A DNA stretch of 53,791 nucleotides from Polyangiaceae bacterium (GTDB taxonomy: Bacteria; Myxococcota_A; Polyangia; Polyangiales; Polyangiaceae). A program made the translations under genes and the position numbers. This document shows positions 12,382-39,062 of this stretch, one piece after another (position 1 is the stretch's first letter; every line of letters starts with the position of its first letter). The stretch spans positions 1-53,791 of the forward strand of contig JADLFU010000053.1 in assembly GCA_020849655.1 (NCBI GenBank), in the 5' to 3' direction. A model generated the notes under the pieces. It was not told the DNA's origin, did no database searches, and worked only from the letters and a program-made list of their open reading frames with translations.

Positions 12382-13662
12382 ATGCCCCCCATCTCTCGCC
12401 GCTCGCTGTCGCTCGGCCTCGGCGCCGCGCTGCTCGCCTCGCCCTTCGTCGACCTCCTGTCGGGCGGGGGGCGCGCGCGCGCCGACGCGAAGAAGACGGC
12501 CCGCAGGCTCGTCGTGTTCTTCACGCCGAACGGCACGGTCCCGAGCCGCTGGCGGCCCGTCGGCGGGGAGTCGTCGCTGTCGTTCCCCGCGGGGTCGATC
12601 CTCGAGCCGCTCACCCCCGTGAAGGGCGATCTCATCGTCTGCGACGGCGTCGACTTCGTCGGCGTGTCCAACCACGAGGGCGGGATGGCCGCGATGCTCA
12701 CCGGGGGCGGCGACGCGGGATCGCTCTCGCGCGGCATGTCCGTCGATCAGTTCGTCGCGTCGAAGATCGGCGGGGGCGACAGGTTCGCGTCGCTCGAGCT
12801 CGGGGTGCAGACGAGCGCGTGGGGCGGGAACGTCCAGACGCGCATGTGCTACTCGGCGCCCGGCGCCTTCGTGCCGCCGGACGACGATCCGGCGAGCGTG
12901 CACGCGCGGCTGTTCGCGGGGCTCGCGCCCGCCGGCGCGCCGGCCGATCCTCGCGTCGCCCGGCGCAGGCGCGCGCTCGACGTCGCGCGAGAGGAGCTCG
13001 CGGCGCTCTCGGCGCGGCTCGGCAAGGAGGAGCGCGACAAGCTCGGCGTCCACCTGGCGTCGCTCGACAAGCTCGACGCGTCCTGGGGCGTGGGCGCCGC
13101 GGCCGCCGGGTGTCAGCCCGCGCCGATGCCGGTCGCGAAGCCCTCGTTCGCCGATCAGGGCGCGCAGCAGCTCGATCTGTTGGTCGCGGCGCTGGCGTGC
13201 GGCATGACGCGCGTCGCGTCCCTCCAGTGGTCCCACACCGTCGGCCCGCAGGTGTTCGATTGGTTGGGTTTGACGGAGGGCCACCACGCGCTGTCCCACA
13301 TCGACGACTCGAACCCGAGCGGCGTCGAGCAGTTCGTCAAGGCCGAGCGCTGGTACGCGTCGCAGTTCGCGGGGCTGATCGACCGGCTGCGCGCGGCGCC
13401 CGATCCGGCCGGCGGGACGCTGCTCGACTCGACGCTGGTCGTGTGGGCGAAGGAGCTCGGCGACGGGCGCCTGCACGAGTGCAAGTCCGTGCCCTTCGTG
13501 ATGGCGGGCGGCGGCGTGTGGCGGACGGGGCGCCTGCTGCAGCTCAACGGCACCCCGCACCAGCGGCTGCTGGTGTCGATCTGCCAGGCGATGGGGCTGA
13601 CGAACCAGACGTTCGGCGACGCGAGCAAGGGTCAGGGGCCGGTCGAGGCGCTGTGGAGCTGA
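12382..13662 (+). CDS. DUF1552 family secreted protein
   Basis: A 426-residue protein with a Tat-like signal (SRRSLSLGLG followed by a hydrophobic stretch), then the DUF1552 domain: LVVFFTPNGTVPSRW, HEGGMAAMLTG, SVDQFVASKIG, LELGVQT, DSTLVVWAKELGDG and the terminal GEDG-like region replaced by QTFGDASKGQG. The family has alkaline-phosphatase/sulfatase-like features and is found almost always beside DUF1592-type cytochrome proteins in Planctomycetes and Myxococcota; its reaction is not established. The next gene is such a partner, 27 bases downstream, so the pair is probably an operon. Confidence 0.9.
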   Translation: MPPISRRSLSLGLGAALLASPFVDLLSGGGRARADAKKTARRLVVFFTPNGTVPSRWRPVGGESSLSFPAGSILEPLTPVKGDLIVCDGVDFVGVSNHEGGMAAMLTGGGDAGSLSRGMSVDQFVASKIGGGDRFASLELGVQTSAWGGNVQTRMCYSAPGAFVPPDDDPASVHARLFAGLAPAGAPADPRVARRRRALDVAREELAALSARLGKEERDKLGVHLASLDKLDASWGVGAAAAGCQPAPMPVAKPSFADQGAQQLDLLVAALACGMTRVASLQWSHTVGPQVFDWLGLTEGHHALSHIDDSNPSGVEQFVKAERWYASQFAGLIDRLRAAPDPAGGTLLDSTLVVWAKELGDGRLHECKSVPFVMAGGGVWRTGRLLQLNGTPHQRLLVSICQAMGLTNQTFGDASKGQGPVEALWS

Positions 13663-13689: not shown

Positions 13690-15996
13690 ATGAAGCGAAC
13701 GATGATGATGACCATGGGCTGGCTGCTGGCCGCGGGCTGCGCGGCGGGGGGCCCGGGCGACGGCGCGGACGGCGAGTCGGAGCGCGGCGCGGACGTCTCG
13801 ACGCCCTGCCCCGACGACCGCGCGTTCTTCGTGAGCGAGGTGCGCGCGCCCCTGCTCGCGAAGCGCTGCGTCGGCTGTCACCGCGAGGGCGGGCTCGCCG
13901 GCGCGTCGCGGCTCGTGCTCTCGGAGACCGACGAGCGCGCGGGCTTCGCCGGGGCCGTCGCGCTCGCGAGGGAGAGCGCCGGGGGCGTGCCCGCGCTGCT
14001 CGCGCGGCCCGCGGGCCTGCACCCGGACGGACACCCTGGCGGGACGCTCACGCCGCCTGGCACGGCCGGCTACGCGCGGCTCCAGGCGTTCGTGGCGCGC
14101 GTCGCGGGCGGCGACTGCGCGGCGCAGGCGGGGCAGACCTGTGACGCTTCGACGCCGGGCAAGCGGCGGCTCCGCAGGCTGACCCGCCGCGAGCTCGACC
14201 GCACGCTGCGGGATCTGTTCGCGCTGCCGGAGGGGTTCTCCGCGGGGCTCGCCGCCGACACCGTGGTCGCGGGGTTCGACAACCGCGCGGACGTCGGCCT
14301 GGTCACGCCGCTCGTGGCCTCGCAGGTGGCGACGATGGCCGAGCAGCTGTCGGCGAAGATCGTCGCGGGCTGGGCCCCGTGCGCGGGCGCGGGCTCGGCG
14401 TGCGTCGACGCGGTGCTCGACGGCGTCGGCAGGCGGCTGTTCCGGCGGCCGCTGTCGAGCGGCGAGCGAGCGCGCTACCGCGCGCTGTACGCCGCCGCCG
14501 AGGAGGATCAGGCCGGCGTCGGGCGCGAGGCGGTGCTGGGCGCGCTCCTGCAGTCGCCGAGCTTCCTCTACCGCGCGGAGCTCGGCGGCGCGGCGGCGGG
14601 CGGCGTGGTCACGCTCGACGGCTACGAGCGGGCGACCGCGCTCTCGTACCTCGCGTGGGGCACGACGCCGGACGACGCCTTGCTCGACGCCGCGGCGACC
14701 GGCGCGCTCGACACGCCGGCGGGGCTCTCGGCCCAGCTCGAGCGGCTGCTCGCCGATCCTCGCGCGTCGGGCGCGACCGAAGCGTTCGTCTCGCAGTGGC
14801 TCGACGTCGGCCGCCTGGACTCCGCGCCCAAGGACGCGGCCGTGTACCCGGCCTTCGACGCGGGGCTGCGCGCGGCGATGCGCGAGGAGACGCGCCGCTT
14901 CGTGGATCACGTGGTGCGCGAGCGCCACGGCACGCTCGGTGATCTCTTGACCTCGCGCGAGACGTTCGTCGGAGGCGCGCTCGGTGACCTGTACGGCGCG
15001 CCGGCGGGCGCGGTGCAGCCCTGGACCCAGGACGCCGTCCGCGCGGGGCTGCTCACGCAGGCCTCCGTGCTCGCGGTGCACGGCGGGCCCGCGGGCTCGT
15101 CACCCATCCAGCGCGGCAAGCTCGTGCGCGAGCGGCTGCTCTGTCAGCCGCTGCCCCCGCCGCCCGCCAACGTGAGCGTCAAGCCGCCGCCGGTCGACCC
15201 GACGAAGTCGACACGCGAGCGGTTCGCGGCGCACGGCGCGGTCGAGCCCTGCCTCAGCTGCCACCGGCTGATGGACCCGATCGGGTTCGCGTTCGAGGGG
15301 TTCGACGGGATAGGGCGGGCGCGGGCGACCGAGGCGGGCCACCCCGTCGACACCCGCGGCTCGATCCTCGACGCGGGCTCCGCGAGCGGCGACGTGACGG
15401 GCGCCGCAGAGGTCGCCGCGCGCCTCGCCGCGAGCCCCGAGGTGCGCGCCTGCTTCGCGTCGCAGTGGGTGCGGTTCGGGTTCGGCGTCGACGAGGAGGA
15501 GGAGCTGCCCTGCCTCACCGACGGCCTGCGCATGAGCTTCCAGGAGGGCGACGGATCGGTCGAGGGGCTGCTCCGCGCGCTGGTCGCGACGCCGCACTTC
15601 ACGACCCGCCGCGCGGACCCGGAGCAGCAGCCGGCGCCGATGGCACCTGACGCACCCAGCATGGGCGCGGCGGGCGCGGCGGGCGCGGCGGGCGCAGGCG
15701 GTGCGGCGGGCGCGAGCGGCGCCGCCGGCGCGACGAGCGGCGACTCCGTGACCGTCACCACGACGACCGACACGTCGTGGCCCGGCGGCAGCTGCAGCAC
15801 CGCGAAGATCGTCAACGCCGGCGCGGCGGCGGCCACCTGGCAGGTCTCCCTGGAGATCGGCGGCGAGCTCACCGACGTGTGGAACGCGGTCGATCTCGGC
15901 GCGAAGGGCCCGACGCGAGCGTTCCGTGGCGTCGAGTGGAACGCGTCGCTCCCGCCCGGAGGCTCGACGAGCTTCGGGTTCTGCGTGGCGAAATGA
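13690..15996 (+). CDS. DUF1592/DUF1588-type lipoprotein with cytochrome motif and C-terminal CBM2-like domain
   Basis: A 768-residue exported lipoprotein (lipobox LAAGC, Cys 17). A cytochrome-type heme motif CVGCH sits at 60-64. Then come DUF1587 (RRLTRRELDRTLRDLF), DUF1595 (RRLFRRPLSSGERARY), DUF1592 (YERATALSYLAWGTTPDD), DUF1588 (GLLTQASVLAVHGG to CLSCHRLMDPIGFAFEGFD, containing a second CxxCH) and DUF1585. After a Gly/Ala linker the last 85 residues resemble a family 2 carbohydrate-binding module, with conserved Trp-Asn-Ala, W-N-x-x-L-x-PG and SFGF motifs and a flanking Cys pair. The core is expected to be a periplasmic or surface heme-binding protein working with the DUF1552 partner; the CBM2-like tail suggests polysaccharide binding. 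Confidence 0.88.
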   Translation: MKRTMMMTMGWLLAAGCAAGGPGDGADGESERGADVSTPCPDDRAFFVSEVRAPLLAKRCVGCHREGGLAGASRLVLSETDERAGFAGAVALARESAGGVPALLARPAGLHPDGHPGGTLTPPGTAGYARLQAFVARVAGGDCAAQAGQTCDASTPGKRRLRRLTRRELDRTLRDLFALPEGFSAGLAADTVVAGFDNRADVGLVTPLVASQVATMAEQLSAKIVAGWAPCAGAGSACVDAVLDGVGRRLFRRPLSSGERARYRALYAAAEEDQAGVGREAVLGALLQSPSFLYRAELGGAAAGGVVTLDGYERATALSYLAWGTTPDDALLDAAATGALDTPAGLSAQLERLLADPRASGATEAFVSQWLDVGRLDSAPKDAAVYPAFDAGLRAAMREETRRFVDHVVRERHGTLGDLLTSRETFVGGALGDLYGAPAGAVQPWTQDAVRAGLLTQASVLAVHGGPAGSSPIQRGKLVRERLLCQPLPPPPANVSVKPPPVDPTKSTRERFAAHGAVEPCLSCHRLMDPIGFAFEGFDGIGRARATEAGHPVDTRGSILDAGSASGDVTGAAEVAARLAASPEVRACFASQWVRFGFGVDEEEELPCLTDGLRMSFQEGDGSVEGLLRALVATPHFTTRRADPEQQPAPMAPDAPSMGAAGAAGAAGAGGAAGASGAAGATSGDSVTVTTTTDTSWPGGSCSTAKIVNAGAAAATWQVSLEIGGELTDVWNAVDLGAKGPTRAFRGVEWNASLPPGGSTSFGFCVAK

Positions 15997-35919: not shown

Positions 35920-36033
35920 GGGCGCCGGTCGGACGGCGAGGACGACGAGCGTCAGGGGACGGCGCATCGCTCCACTCTTCGGTCCCGCGCGAAGTTGCAC
36001 GCGGGGCCGCCTGGGGGGGACCATGTTCGGCCC

Positions 36034-37674
36034 ATGCGCCCGCGACCCTTCGTCTTTGCCCTCGCCGTCGCGGCGGGCTGCGCGCGCTCGGCGTCCATCG
36101 TCGCTCCGGCGCACGAGCCTGGCACGCACCCTCACCCTACCCAAGCCACCCACGCCCCCCTGCCCGCCGCGCCCGCGCCGCTCCGCAGGCTGAGCAACGA
36201 GGAGTACGACAACAGCGTCCGCGATCTCCTCGGCGACACGACGCGCCCGGCGGCGGACTTCCCGCCGGACGAGCTGGCCGGGGGGTTCGAGAGCGGCTCC
36301 GTCTCGCCGGTGACTCAGTCCCTCGTCGAGCGGTACCTCGCGGCGGCCGAGGCGCTCTCCGCGGCCGCCGCTCCGCGGCTGCCGACGCTCGGGGGGTGCG
36401 TCCCGGCGCAGCGGGAGGCGGAGTGCGCGGCGCAGCTCGTCGAGCGCCTCGGGCGCGCCGTGTTTCGTCGCCCGGTCGAGCCGCGCGAGCGCGACGCGCT
36501 CACGTCCCTGTACGCTCGCGCCGCGCCCCGCCGCGGGCACGAGCGGGCGCTCGCGCTGGTGGTGCAGGCGATGCTGCAGTCTCCTGCGTTCCTCTACCGC
36601 GCCGAGCCACAGCGCTCACCCGAAGAAGCGGCGCGCGCGCTGACCGGGTACGAACTCGCGACCCGCCTCTCGTACTTCCTCTGGGCCTCGACCCCCGACG
36701 AGCGGCTGCTGGACGATGCCGGCGCCGGGCGGCTGGCCTGCGCGGAGGGCGTCGAGGCCGCGGCTCGCAGGCTGCTCGCAGACCGGCGCGCGATCGACGG
36801 AGTGCGCAACTTCTATCGACAGTGGCTCGACTTGCGCGAGCTGGGGACCGTGTCGCGAGACGCCCGGGTGCACCCCGAGTTCACGCCCGAGCTGCGCCGC
36901 TCGATGGTCGAAGAGACGCTCCGCTTCGCCGCGGACGCCACGCTGGAGGGACGCGATCTCGTCCGCGCGCTGTACACGAGCCAAGAGTCGTTCGTCGACG
37001 CGGCGCTCGCGCGTCACTACGGCGTGGAGGCGCCGACCCGCGCCGGCTTCTCGCGGGTCTCGCTGCCCGCGGCGCGGCGCGCTGGCGTGCTGACGCACGC
37101 GAGCGTCCTCACCGTGCACGCGAGCGCAGAGGACGCGTCGCCCGTCATGCGCGGCAAGTTCGTGCGCGAGAAGGTGCTCTGTCAGGAGGTGCCGCCTCCG
37201 CCGCCGAACGTGGCGATCGCGCTGCCGAGGGTCGACCCGTCGGTGACGAAGAAGGAGCGCTTCGCCACGCACCGCGTGGCGCCCGCGTGCGGTTCGTGCC
37301 ACCGGCTGATGGACCCTGTCGGCTTCGGCTTCGAGCACTACGACGCGACCGGCGCGTGGCGGGACCGCGAGGGCGGGCGCGACGTCGACGCCACGGGCGT
37401 GCTCGAAGGCGCAGGGGGCCCAGCGGCCGGGTTCGACGGCGCGGTCGCGCTCGGAGAGCTCCTCGCCGAGAGCCCCCGCGCGCGGCGCTGCGTGACGACT
37501 CAGTGGCTCCGTGCGGCGCTCGGGCGAAGAGAGCGCGACGAAGACGAGGCGTCGCTCGAGGCTGCCCACGCCGCCTTCGTCACCTCGGGATTCGACGCCC
37601 GCGCGCTCTTGATCGCCATCGTGAAGACCGACTCGTTTCGCCGCGTGGGCTTCGACCGGGGGGCGCCCCAGTGA
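36034..37674 (+). CDS. DUF1592/DUF1588-type secreted protein
   Basis: A 546-residue exported protein. A short signal ends near AVAAGC (possible lipobox). DUF1587 begins RRLSNEEYDNSVRDLLG; DUF1595 has RAVFRRPVEPRERDAL; DUF1592 has YELATRLSYFLWASTPDE; DUF1588 ends in CGSCHRLMDPVGFGFEHYD, with a CxxCH heme-type motif; DUF1585 ends the protein. Unlike the copy at 13690-15996 it has no N-terminal cytochrome motif and no CBM2-like tail. The start at 36034 was chosen because the signal peptide begins there; the upstream extension is not signal-like. The stop overlaps the DUF1552 gene (GTGA). Confidence 0.9.
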   Translation: MRPRPFVFALAVAAGCARSASIVAPAHEPGTHPHPTQATHAPLPAAPAPLRRLSNEEYDNSVRDLLGDTTRPAADFPPDELAGGFESGSVSPVTQSLVERYLAAAEALSAAAAPRLPTLGGCVPAQREAECAAQLVERLGRAVFRRPVEPRERDALTSLYARAAPRRGHERALALVVQAMLQSPAFLYRAEPQRSPEEAARALTGYELATRLSYFLWASTPDERLLDDAGAGRLACAEGVEAAARRLLADRRAIDGVRNFYRQWLDLRELGTVSRDARVHPEFTPELRRSMVEETLRFAADATLEGRDLVRALYTSQESFVDAALARHYGVEAPTRAGFSRVSLPAARRAGVLTHASVLTVHASAEDASPVMRGKFVREKVLCQEVPPPPPNVAIALPRVDPSVTKKERFATHRVAPACGSCHRLMDPVGFGFEHYDATGAWRDREGGRDVDATGVLEGAGGPAAGFDGAVALGELLAESPRARRCVTTQWLRAALGRRERDEDEASLEAAHAAFVTSGFDARALLIAIVKTDSFRRVGFDRGAPQ

Positions 37675-39062
37675 GCCATCGCATCGGCCGGCGCCAGCTG
37701 CTCGGCGCGCTCGGGGCAGGGCTCGGCGCGTCGACGCTGCCGTTCGTCCCGTGGCTCGACGCTCGCGCCGCCGGCGCCCCACCCCCGAAGCGCATCCTGT
37801 TCTTCTTCTCCTCGAACGGCACCGTCCACGAGAGCTGGGTGCCGGAGGCGCGCGGCGAGCGCCTCCACCGCCTGAGCCCCATCCTGGCGCCGCTCGAGCG
37901 GCACCGCGCGCGCTTGCTCGTGATCGACGGGCTCGCGCACAAAGTCATCATCGAGAAGAGCAGCCGGTCGGGGCACACCGCCGGGATGAACACCGCGCTC
38001 ACGGGGCGCAACAACGAGATCACCGACCCGCGCCAGCCGCTCCACAGCCTGGCGACGGGCGTCTCGCTCGACCAGCACCTCGGCGCGCGGTTGGGCGCGA
38101 ACTCCAAGCTCCGCACGGTCGAGGCGGGCGTGCAGGTCGAGCCCTACAACAAAGATTTCGCCGCGCTCTCGTACGCGGGGCGGCGCGCCCCCATCCTGCC
38201 GGAGAGCAGCCCCTATCGCCTGTTCGACAGGCTGTTCACCGGGGCGTCGCGGCAGGTCGCGCCGAGCGGCGACGCGGCGGACGTCGGCGCGCTCGAGGAC
38301 CGCCGACTGGTGCTCGAGGCCGTGTCGGCCGACCTCGACGCCCTTCGCGCCCGGCTGCCCGCGAGCGACCGGGTCAAGGTGGAGGCACACCTCGACGCCG
38401 TCCGCGCGCTGGGCCACAGCCTGGCGACCGGGGTGGGCGCGGGCGCGAGCGCGGCGTGCGCGGCGCCGACGCTCGCCAGGCACGTCCACCCGTGGAACAA
38501 CGACGACATCCCAGCCCTCGCGCGGCTTCAGACCGAGCTCGTGGTGATGTCGCTCGCCTGTGATCTGACCCGCGTCGCGACGCTGCAGTTCGGGCGCGGC
38601 GGCGCGGCGCACAGGTTCACGTGGCTGGGTCAGGAGTTCGCACGAGACCCGCAGGTCGGCCCCGCGTGCCAGGCGAAGGGCCTGCACGCGCTCGCGCACC
38701 GCGACACCGATCCAGTCTCGCGCGCGAAGCTCGTCCGCATCCATGCGTGGTACGCGGCCGAGCTGGCGCACCTGCTCGATCGCCTGGCCTCGGTGCGCGA
38801 GGGTGGCGGGACGCTCCTCGACAGCACCGTCGTCGTCTGGATGAACGAGCTCGGCACCGGCGGCGACCACAGCCACGAGCGCACGCCGTGGGTGCTGATC
38901 GGGGGCTCGCGCCAGCAGCTCTCGGCGGGGCGCTTGTTGACCTTCCCCGGGGAACCCCACAACCGGTTGTTGTTGTCGCTCTGTCACATGATGGGTGTGG
39001 AGGCGGAGACGTTTGGTGATCCGGACTATTGCGCCAGGGGCCCGCTCACCGGCCTTGCCTAG
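37671..39062 (+). CDS. DUF1552 family secreted protein
   Basis: A 463-residue protein starting with GTG in the stop of the DUF1592 gene. A Tat-like signal (GRRQLLGALGAGLGAS) leads into ILFFFSSNGTVHESW, SGHTAGMNTALTG, SLDQHLGARLG, DSTVVVWMNELGTG and a C-terminal MGVEAETFGDPDY. It is paired with the DUF1592 protein; the reaction is unknown. The gene order is the reverse of the first pair. Confidence 0.9.
   Translation: MSHRIGRRQLLGALGAGLGASTLPFVPWLDARAAGAPPPKRILFFFSSNGTVHESWVPEARGERLHRLSPILAPLERHRARLLVIDGLAHKVIIEKSSRSGHTAGMNTALTGRNNEITDPRQPLHSLATGVSLDQHLGARLGANSKLRTVEAGVQVEPYNKDFAALSYAGRRAPILPESSPYRLFDRLFTGASRQVAPSGDAADVGALEDRRLVLEAVSADLDALRARLPASDRVKVEAHLDAVRALGHSLATGVGAGASAACAAPTLARHVHPWNNDDIPALARLQTELVVMSLACDLTRVATLQFGRGGAAHRFTWLGQEFARDPQVGPACQAKGLHALAHRDTDPVSRAKLVRIHAWYAAELAHLLDRLASVREGGGTLLDSTVVVWMNELGTGGDHSHERTPWVLIGGSRQQLSAGRLLTFPGEPHNRLLLSLCHMMGVEAETFGDPDYCARGPLTGLA

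Follow-up and report, generated by a model that had tools for sequence, protein, structure and literature searches.

A C-terminal CBM2 domain marks one branch of PSD/PSCyt-type heme proteins that is found mostly in Myxococcota

Introduction

The joining of a CBM2 domain to a PSD-type core is already known, and Cbp2D from Cellvibrio japonicus is the precedent. This protein has the architecture CBM2-X158-FN3-X183-X132/DUF1587 (domains including DUF1587 as laid out in a section of PMC8981238) and, as stated in a portion of PMC12542752, is essential together with Cbp2E for growth on insoluble cellulose. The same portion of PMC12542752 puts forward direct cleavage of cellulose by Cbp2D/E, while a passage of PMC8981238 describes the reduction of an LPMO by the isolated X183 heme domain of Cbp2D. 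We infer that X132 of Cbp2D represents the whole DUF1587-1585 core. Similar proteins are mentioned for Teredinibacter in a passage of PMC10916295, and Table 1 of PMC6004670 lists the Cellvibrio DUF1592 protein WP_007644728 with CBM2 from a wheat-straw-degrading metasecretome. According to a section of PMC5615132 some PSCyt proteins of Verrucomicrobia carry CBM-type domains (LamG_3, Bac_rhamnosid_N, NPCBM, CBM6, PA14) and are predicted to be periplasmic or cytoplasmic. DUF1800-DUF1501 pairs, in turn, adjoin bacterial chitin synthase genes (excerpt of PMC5122149), and by analogy PSD-DUF1552 may be a two-gene system parallel to DUF1800-DUF1501. In the library of open-licence papers that was searched we found no paper on CBM2 combined with a PSD core in Myxococcota.

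Results

Two PSD-DUF1552 cassettes of opposite gene order

The window, i.e. the whole stretch of 53,791 nucleotides that was analyzed, stems from a Polyangiaceae bacterium (GCA_020849655.1, contig JADLFU010000053.1). A single reading frame on its plus strand (13690-15996; third-position GC 0.95) encodes 768 amino acids. An earlier note had described this protein as a DUF1592/DUF1588 heme-type protein ending in a CBM2-like domain behind a Gly/Ala linker, and each element of this description was recovered: five PSD/PSCyt3 family domains, DUF1592 and DUF1588 among them, follow each other in order and each exceeds its Pfam cut-off, one of two CxxCH motifs (residues 60-64 and 521-525) lies inside DUF1588, and the span originally singled out (15660-15996) comprises linker, domain and stop codon. 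The features are as follows.

12382-13662, plus strand: DUF1552 (HXXSHH) gene, 426 aa, presumed partner (PF07586, E 1.5e-70)
13690-15996, plus strand: two-heme DUF1587/1595/1592/1588/1585 protein with C-terminal CBM2, class A (Pfam matches, reading frame)
13690-13740, plus strand: lipoprotein-like signal peptide MKRTMMMTMGWLLAAGC with lipobox Cys17 (Cys17 column of the alignment)
13813-14112, plus strand: N-terminal c-type-cytochrome-like domain, CVGCH at 13867-13881 and conserved GHxGG with His115 (CxxCH, alignment)
14173-14364, plus strand: DUF1587 (PSD3; Pfam E 1.3e-14)
14401-14580, plus strand: DUF1595 (PSD5; Pfam E 3e-14)
14614-14997, plus strand: DUF1592 (PSD4; Pfam E 6.7e-39)
15040-15333, plus strand: DUF1588 (PSCyt3; Pfam E 6.6e-31), heme motif CLSCH at 15250-15264
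15394-15600, plus strand: DUF1585 (PSD2; Pfam E 4.1e-8)
15664-15729, plus strand: Gly/Ala linker, residues 659-680 (sequence; pLDDT below 50 over residues 655-683)
15739-15993, plus strand: CBM2 domain, short two-Cys variant, residues ~684-768, with W697, W731, W750 and Cys702/Cys765 (Pfam, model, alignment)
35995-37674, plus strand: second DUF1587/1595/1592/1588/1585 gene, class B, one CxxCH, no CBM tail; serves as internal control
37671-39062, plus strand: DUF1552-like partner of the class B gene, downstream of it (phmmer against the first DUF1552 protein of the window)

The five Pfam domains are the same as in planctomycete-specific proteins made of PSCyt3 and PSD2-5; an NCBIfam search gave no match. 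All 14 class A proteins of the alignment share a cysteine in the Cys17 column, and a strict lipoprotein rule (positive N-region, hydrophobic core and lipobox) holds for 18 of 39 tail-bearing proteins; Cys17 is presumably the lipobox cysteine, as judged from the commonly accepted consensus. Between the end of the upstream DUF1552 gene and the start of the heme protein gene lie 27 bases. The DUF1552 product starts with a sequence, SRRSLSLGL, that by eye resembles a twin-arginine signal and that we take, from the general consensus, to be a Tat motif.

The window contains one class A gene and one class B gene. In the second cassette (35995-39062) the order of the PSD (DUF1587-1585) and DUF1552 genes is reversed, and both the CBM tail and the N-terminal heme domain are missing. 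The protein encoded at 37671-39062 is related to the first DUF1552 protein (phmmer E 3.7e-57 in a two-sequence comparison), and the class B protein also matches DUF1800, just above the cut-off (E 5.8e-6, 26.2 versus 26.1 bits).

The tail is a CBM2 domain

The earlier note had proposed a CBM2 profile search and structure prediction as checks, and the outcome of both agrees with its assignment. Residues 688-765 match PF00553 (CBM_2) with E 1.3e-10 and a score of 42.0 bits, the curated cut-off being 24, and a scan restricted to the last 124 residues raises the score to 46.2 bits (E 6.3e-12). It is the sole CBM_2 match in the host genome at E <= 1; likewise, a profile of the tail finds only this one match in the six frames of the window, and no match in the plasmid collection. 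The motifs named at the outset, Trp-Asn-Ala, W-N-x-x-L-x-PG and SFGF, are present as WNA (731-733), WNASLPPG (750-757) and SFGFC (761-765).

AlphaFold2, run on the whole chain with 38 related sequences (mean pLDDT 84.6), folds the tail into an all-beta sandwich of CBM2 type with pLDDT values of 72-95 (blocks of ten, from residue 681), preceded by a disordered linker. The top PDB matches of the full-length model are CBM2 domains. The best Foldseek hit is CBM2a from C. fimi (E 3.2e-4), and VIA-align superimposes the model on 81 residues each of this domain (Z 10.6, 1.5 A) and of the CBM2 of Bacillus thuringiensis ChiA74 (Z 11.0, 1.7 A), as compared with Z 8.3 for an unrelated beta-sandwich, the AP-4 mu domain, and 6 to 7 for integrins. 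On the basis of profile and model we consider it confirmed that the heme protein ends in a CBM2 domain.

The aromatic binding face of CBM2a domains consists of three tryptophans. W697, W731 and W750 fall on W17, W54 and W72 of C. fimi CBM2a (1EXG), counted along the phmmer alignment, and the latter three we take to be its binding residues. All 38 class A proteins compared keep both W697 and W731; position 750 is occupied by Trp in 25, Tyr in five, Phe in three, His in three, and Glu and Gly in one each, that is by W, Y or F in 33 of 38. In its fold and its three binding-face tryptophans the tail thus resembles C. fimi CBM2a (1EXG, 6QFS), ChiA74 CBM2 (6BT9) and the CBM2 of ScLPMO10C (6F7E).

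It differs from these domains in its length of only ~85 residues, ending at position 81-85 of the 101 positions of the CBM_2 profile, and in its cysteines. A bridge between terminal cysteines is typical of CBM2 and is not required; here, Cys702 and Cys765 take the place of the terminal pair. Both are present in 35 of the 38 class A proteins and both are absent from the other three, a single one occurring in none. This both-or-neither pattern argues for a disulfide between Cys702 and Cys765. The three proteins without the pair (two from Polyangium, one from Byssovorax) belong, however, to one clade, so both cysteines were probably lost just once.

Two proteins (L030, L038) of another Myxococcota family, f19, contain a CBM2 with this Cys pair, flanked by AA10 and GH18 domains. 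In four f19 genomes an AA10 match lies in the open frame of the tail, in three of them together with a GH18 match. The arrangement AA10 LPMO - short CBM2 - GH18 chitinase is seen in L030 and L038 and also in frames of L039 and L042; L038 has a second CBM_2 stretch at its C-terminus. Tandem short CBM2 tails are found at the C-terminus of L004/L025 (G166:C325) and L052.

The claim that the tail directs its protein to cellulose, xylan or chitin can be narrowed. Since the three binding-face tryptophans are kept, the nearest solved folds are CBM2 domains for cellulose or chitin and the same variant is fused to LPMO-GH18 proteins, targeting to cellulose or chitin is predicted as a good inference from sequence and model; xylan is not singled out.

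The heme domain and the core

In the N-terminal heme domain the two cysteines and the histidine of the motif and a second histidine are invariant among 20 aligned domains. The domain of the window protein has no Pfam match up to E 10, and no X183 chain is found among the PDB matches by phmmer; on this basis it is not assigned to X183. The same domain also heads a CBM-free family of ~770-830 aa with two CxxCH motifs that occurs in many Myxococcota; its members include L187:2859-5303 (contig C230 of the host genome) and L188-L192. In line with this, 75 of 89 matches to the N-terminal domain have no listed DUF1587 behind them.

The structure search with the full-length model was dominated by matches to the tail. 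When folded alone the core is predicted with high confidence (pLDDT 92.1, pTM 0.92); against the PDB, this model reaches E 2.0 with Foldseek and Z 5.9 over 80 residues with VIA-align at best, and a sequence search of the PDB with the core profile gives nothing at E <= 1. The predicted core hence has no convincing PDB match and no chemistry is named for it, which is not proof of a new fold. The CxxCH column of the core is conserved in 82 cores of both classes. The heme motif and polar residues, among them R252, Y294, R295, E297, D328, R352, R475 and E536, are present in at least 95% of these cores, and the conserved polar residues by the heme motif could be a candidate active site.

The tail follows one branch of the family

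Loci were compared in a set comprising the best 80 of at least 579 confirmed relatives (genome contigs, full-length alignment query including the tail). Loci with DUF1552 downstream of the DUF1592 gene were designated class B (37) and the remaining 43 class A. DUF1552 lies upstream in 38 of the 43 class A loci; four contigs start too near to tell, and L076 has no DUF1552 within 6 kb. In a tree of 82 cores a single branch (100/97) parts class A from class B. Class A sequences are labelled mostly as Myxococcota, five as proteobacterium or Pseudomonadota and a few simply as bacterium.

Among these best 80 of at least 579 relatives, 39 of the 43 class A loci encode the tail within the open frame of the core, a figure that leans high because loci were ranked by a query that included the tail, and none of the 37 class B loci encodes it at the C-terminus. 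The four class A exceptions are a protein that stops in the linker at a contig edge (L066), one with the tail behind an in-frame stop (L080), one in which no more than the final ~20 residues are still in frame (L067) and one without tail (L105). Three gammaproteobacterial class B proteins (L112, L120, L122) carry a CBM2 domain at the N-terminus, with classical terminal cysteines. The class B protein L108 has a malectin domain.

As a check independent of the tail, 150 listed DUF1587 matches, 89 matches to the N-terminal domain and 26 tail matches were compared in the same 188 genomes. Fourteen of the 150 listed DUF1587 matches are preceded by the N-terminal heme domain. The tail follows in eleven of these; two others run off their contig in genomes that have a piece of the tail on another contig, and one (in G141) lacks it. 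Of the remaining 136 listed matches only three have the tail. The 26 tail matches are distributed over 22 genomes, namely 16 with class A hosts, four of family f19, in which the hosts are of AA10/GH18 type or unassigned, and two with weak matches (G024, G141). A role of the tail as a general sorting tag was discarded, as it is carried by one of the host genome's three DUF1588 genes and by 14 of the 150 listed DUF1587 matches.

Two of the strongest new points of this work, both derived from sequence comparison, are that the tail is a conserved trait of one family branch with its own gene order, and that CBM2 was joined to the core independently, at opposite ends, in two lineages.

LPMOs, other CAZymes and neighbouring genes

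For GH5 and GH18 the host genome gives two matches each, for AA10 none at E <= 1. Across the 188 genomes, which are drafts of 81-97% completeness and were searched for AA10 (among LPMOs), GH5 and GH18, AA10 occurs in ten at E <= 1e-5: in one of 16 tail-bearing class A genomes (G067, partial and weak; the host genome belongs to the 15 without a match) versus nine of 172 others (Fisher p 0.6). GH5 (6/16 versus 79/172, p 0.6) and GH18 (8/16 versus 56/172, p 0.18) are not enriched either. AA10, GH5 and GH18 were therefore rejected as fixed partners, there being no association across the 188 genomes. Within the window no CAZyme is recognized next to the cassette. No neighbour family is common to more than six of the 44 neighbourhoods compared, and the largest shared set (6/44) resembles, by eye, a sigma factor with associated genes. 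Judged from gene order, the fixed partner of the class A gene is the DUF1552 gene.

Discussion

Cbp2D and the window protein share a CBM2 domain and a DUF1587-type core in one exported c-type heme chain, a likeness drawn from the published domain description and from the Cbp2D-like proteins L112, L120 and L122. In the Cbp2D-like proteins CBM2 is N-terminal and classical; in the window protein it is C-terminal, short and equipped with a different Cys pair. Furthermore, the window protein is a single lipoprotein-like chain with DUF1552 upstream and without YceI/X158 or FN3, two YceI matches being located elsewhere in the host genome. With X158 and FN3 absent, the protein was not filed as a Cbp2D; a further difference is that no AA10 was found in the genome. 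It resembles WP_007644728 in the combination of CBM2 and DUF1592, as far as a table entry allows comparison; that protein is from Cellvibrio and not from Myxococcota. CBM2 is not among the CBM types named for the PSCyt proteins of Verrucomicrobia, a different phylum, in the section of PMC5615132 cited above. Further combinations are seen in MAG SZUA-336, where L120:3889-7539 and L112:4321-7551 each unite CBM2, a cytochrome c domain and the PSD core in one chain, supplemented in L120 by a domain of the di-heme peroxidase type (CCP_MauG) and in L112 by two DUF4399 stretches.

We propose, with a probability of roughly 0.55, that the class A protein is an exported, lipid-anchored heme redox protein that docks on cellulose or chitin and acts with its DUF1552 partner without the need for AA10. 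A c-type heme protein consisting of an N-terminal one-heme domain and a one-heme PSD core would be exported and probably lipid-anchored, the C-terminal CBM2 on its flexible linker would hold the redox core against insoluble beta-1,4-linked cellulose or chitin, and core and Tat-exported DUF1552 protein would together perform electron transfer or oxidation at the polysaccharide. The mode of action would be most like that of Cellvibrio Cbp2D, with no AA10 LPMO required. Polysaccharide binding, surface exposure, partnership with the DUF1552 protein and redox chemistry are each suggested by domain content, signals and gene order; docking has good support, and the redox chemistry is more tentative. 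A third strong new point is that AA10 is missing from most carriers, which makes it more likely that the protein acts on the polysaccharide independently of an LPMO. Several results speak against the proposal: GH5, GH18 and AA10 are not enriched in the carriers, no CAZyme adjoins the cassette in the window, no neighbour family is widely shared, position 750 is not aromatic or is His in five of 38 proteins, the strict lipoprotein rule holds for fewer than half of the tail-bearing proteins, the core matches no PDB entry that would name a chemistry, and PSCyt proteins of Verrucomicrobia are predicted to be periplasmic or cytoplasmic (section of PMC5615132). The earlier suggestion of oxidative polysaccharide work thus has a precedent in Cbp2D; it stays a suggestion, the core having no solved relative and AA10 not having been found in the host genome.

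The CBM2 domain might instead anchor the lipoprotein to the extracellular matrix or a surface glycan of the cell itself, with the core serving respiration, peroxide handling or attachment. The lipoprotein-like signal and the lack of any correlation with GH5, GH18 or AA10 would fit such a function, as would the possible parallel pair DUF1800-DUF1501, which according to the excerpt of PMC5122149 adjoins chitin synthase, that is synthesis and not breakdown. On the other hand, the same CBM2 variant is fused to AA10 and GH18 in another Myxococcota family, and the other known fusions of CBM2 with the core come from cellulose degraders (portions of PMC12542752 and PMC6004670), so that we regard this explanation as unlikely.

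A bolder proposal is that class A proteins and DUF1552 together carry out heme-based, LPMO-independent direct oxidation of cellulose or chitin and form a new polysaccharide-oxidizing fold, the cellulose activity of Cbp2D then being the gammaproteobacterial version with an independent CBM2 fusion. It builds on the attachment of CBM2 to opposite ends of the core in two lineages, on the absence of AA10 from 15 of 16 carriers, on a confident core model without PDB match, on the near-invariant polar residues in 82 cores and on the proposal of direct cellulose cutting by Cbp2D/E made in a portion of PMC12542752. We hold it to be speculative and quite unlikely in this full form.

More doubtful still is the idea of a tail that is derived from CBM2 but has lost sugar binding and now plays a structural role or contacts other proteins, for example in docking of DUF1552. 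The relocated Cys pair, the loss of the C-terminal profile segment and the replacement of the third aromatic residue in five of 38 proteins could be read in this way. The two other tryptophans are, however, retained in 38 of 38 proteins, and in all 37 class B loci a core lacking the C-terminal tail is paired with DUF1552, so that the tail is not required for the partnership. Finally, a function as electron donor to AA10 LPMOs, as proposed for Cbp2D, is improbable and the weakest of the explanations, since it fits badly with the lack of AA10 in the host genome at E <= 1 and in 15 of 16 tail-bearing class A genomes at E <= 1e-5, even though the isolated X183 domain of Cbp2D reduces an LPMO (passage of PMC8981238) and CBM2 and a DUF1587-type core are common to Cbp2D and class A.

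Several phyla are rich in PSD/PSCyt proteins, to which no reaction is assigned in the literature cited here. If class A proteins indeed dock on cellulose or chitin as lipid-anchored redox proteins, the tail-bearing branch, which has a fixed partner gene and in most cases no AA10 LPMO, would indicate where PSD/PSCyt proteins act, and it would allow a role as LPMO electron donor to be separated from action on the polysaccharide itself. This mostly myxococcal family resembles proteins that Cellvibrio needs for growth on insoluble cellulose, and its occurrence in Archangium and Polyangium, genera that can be cultured, opens the question to tests outside Cellvibrio.
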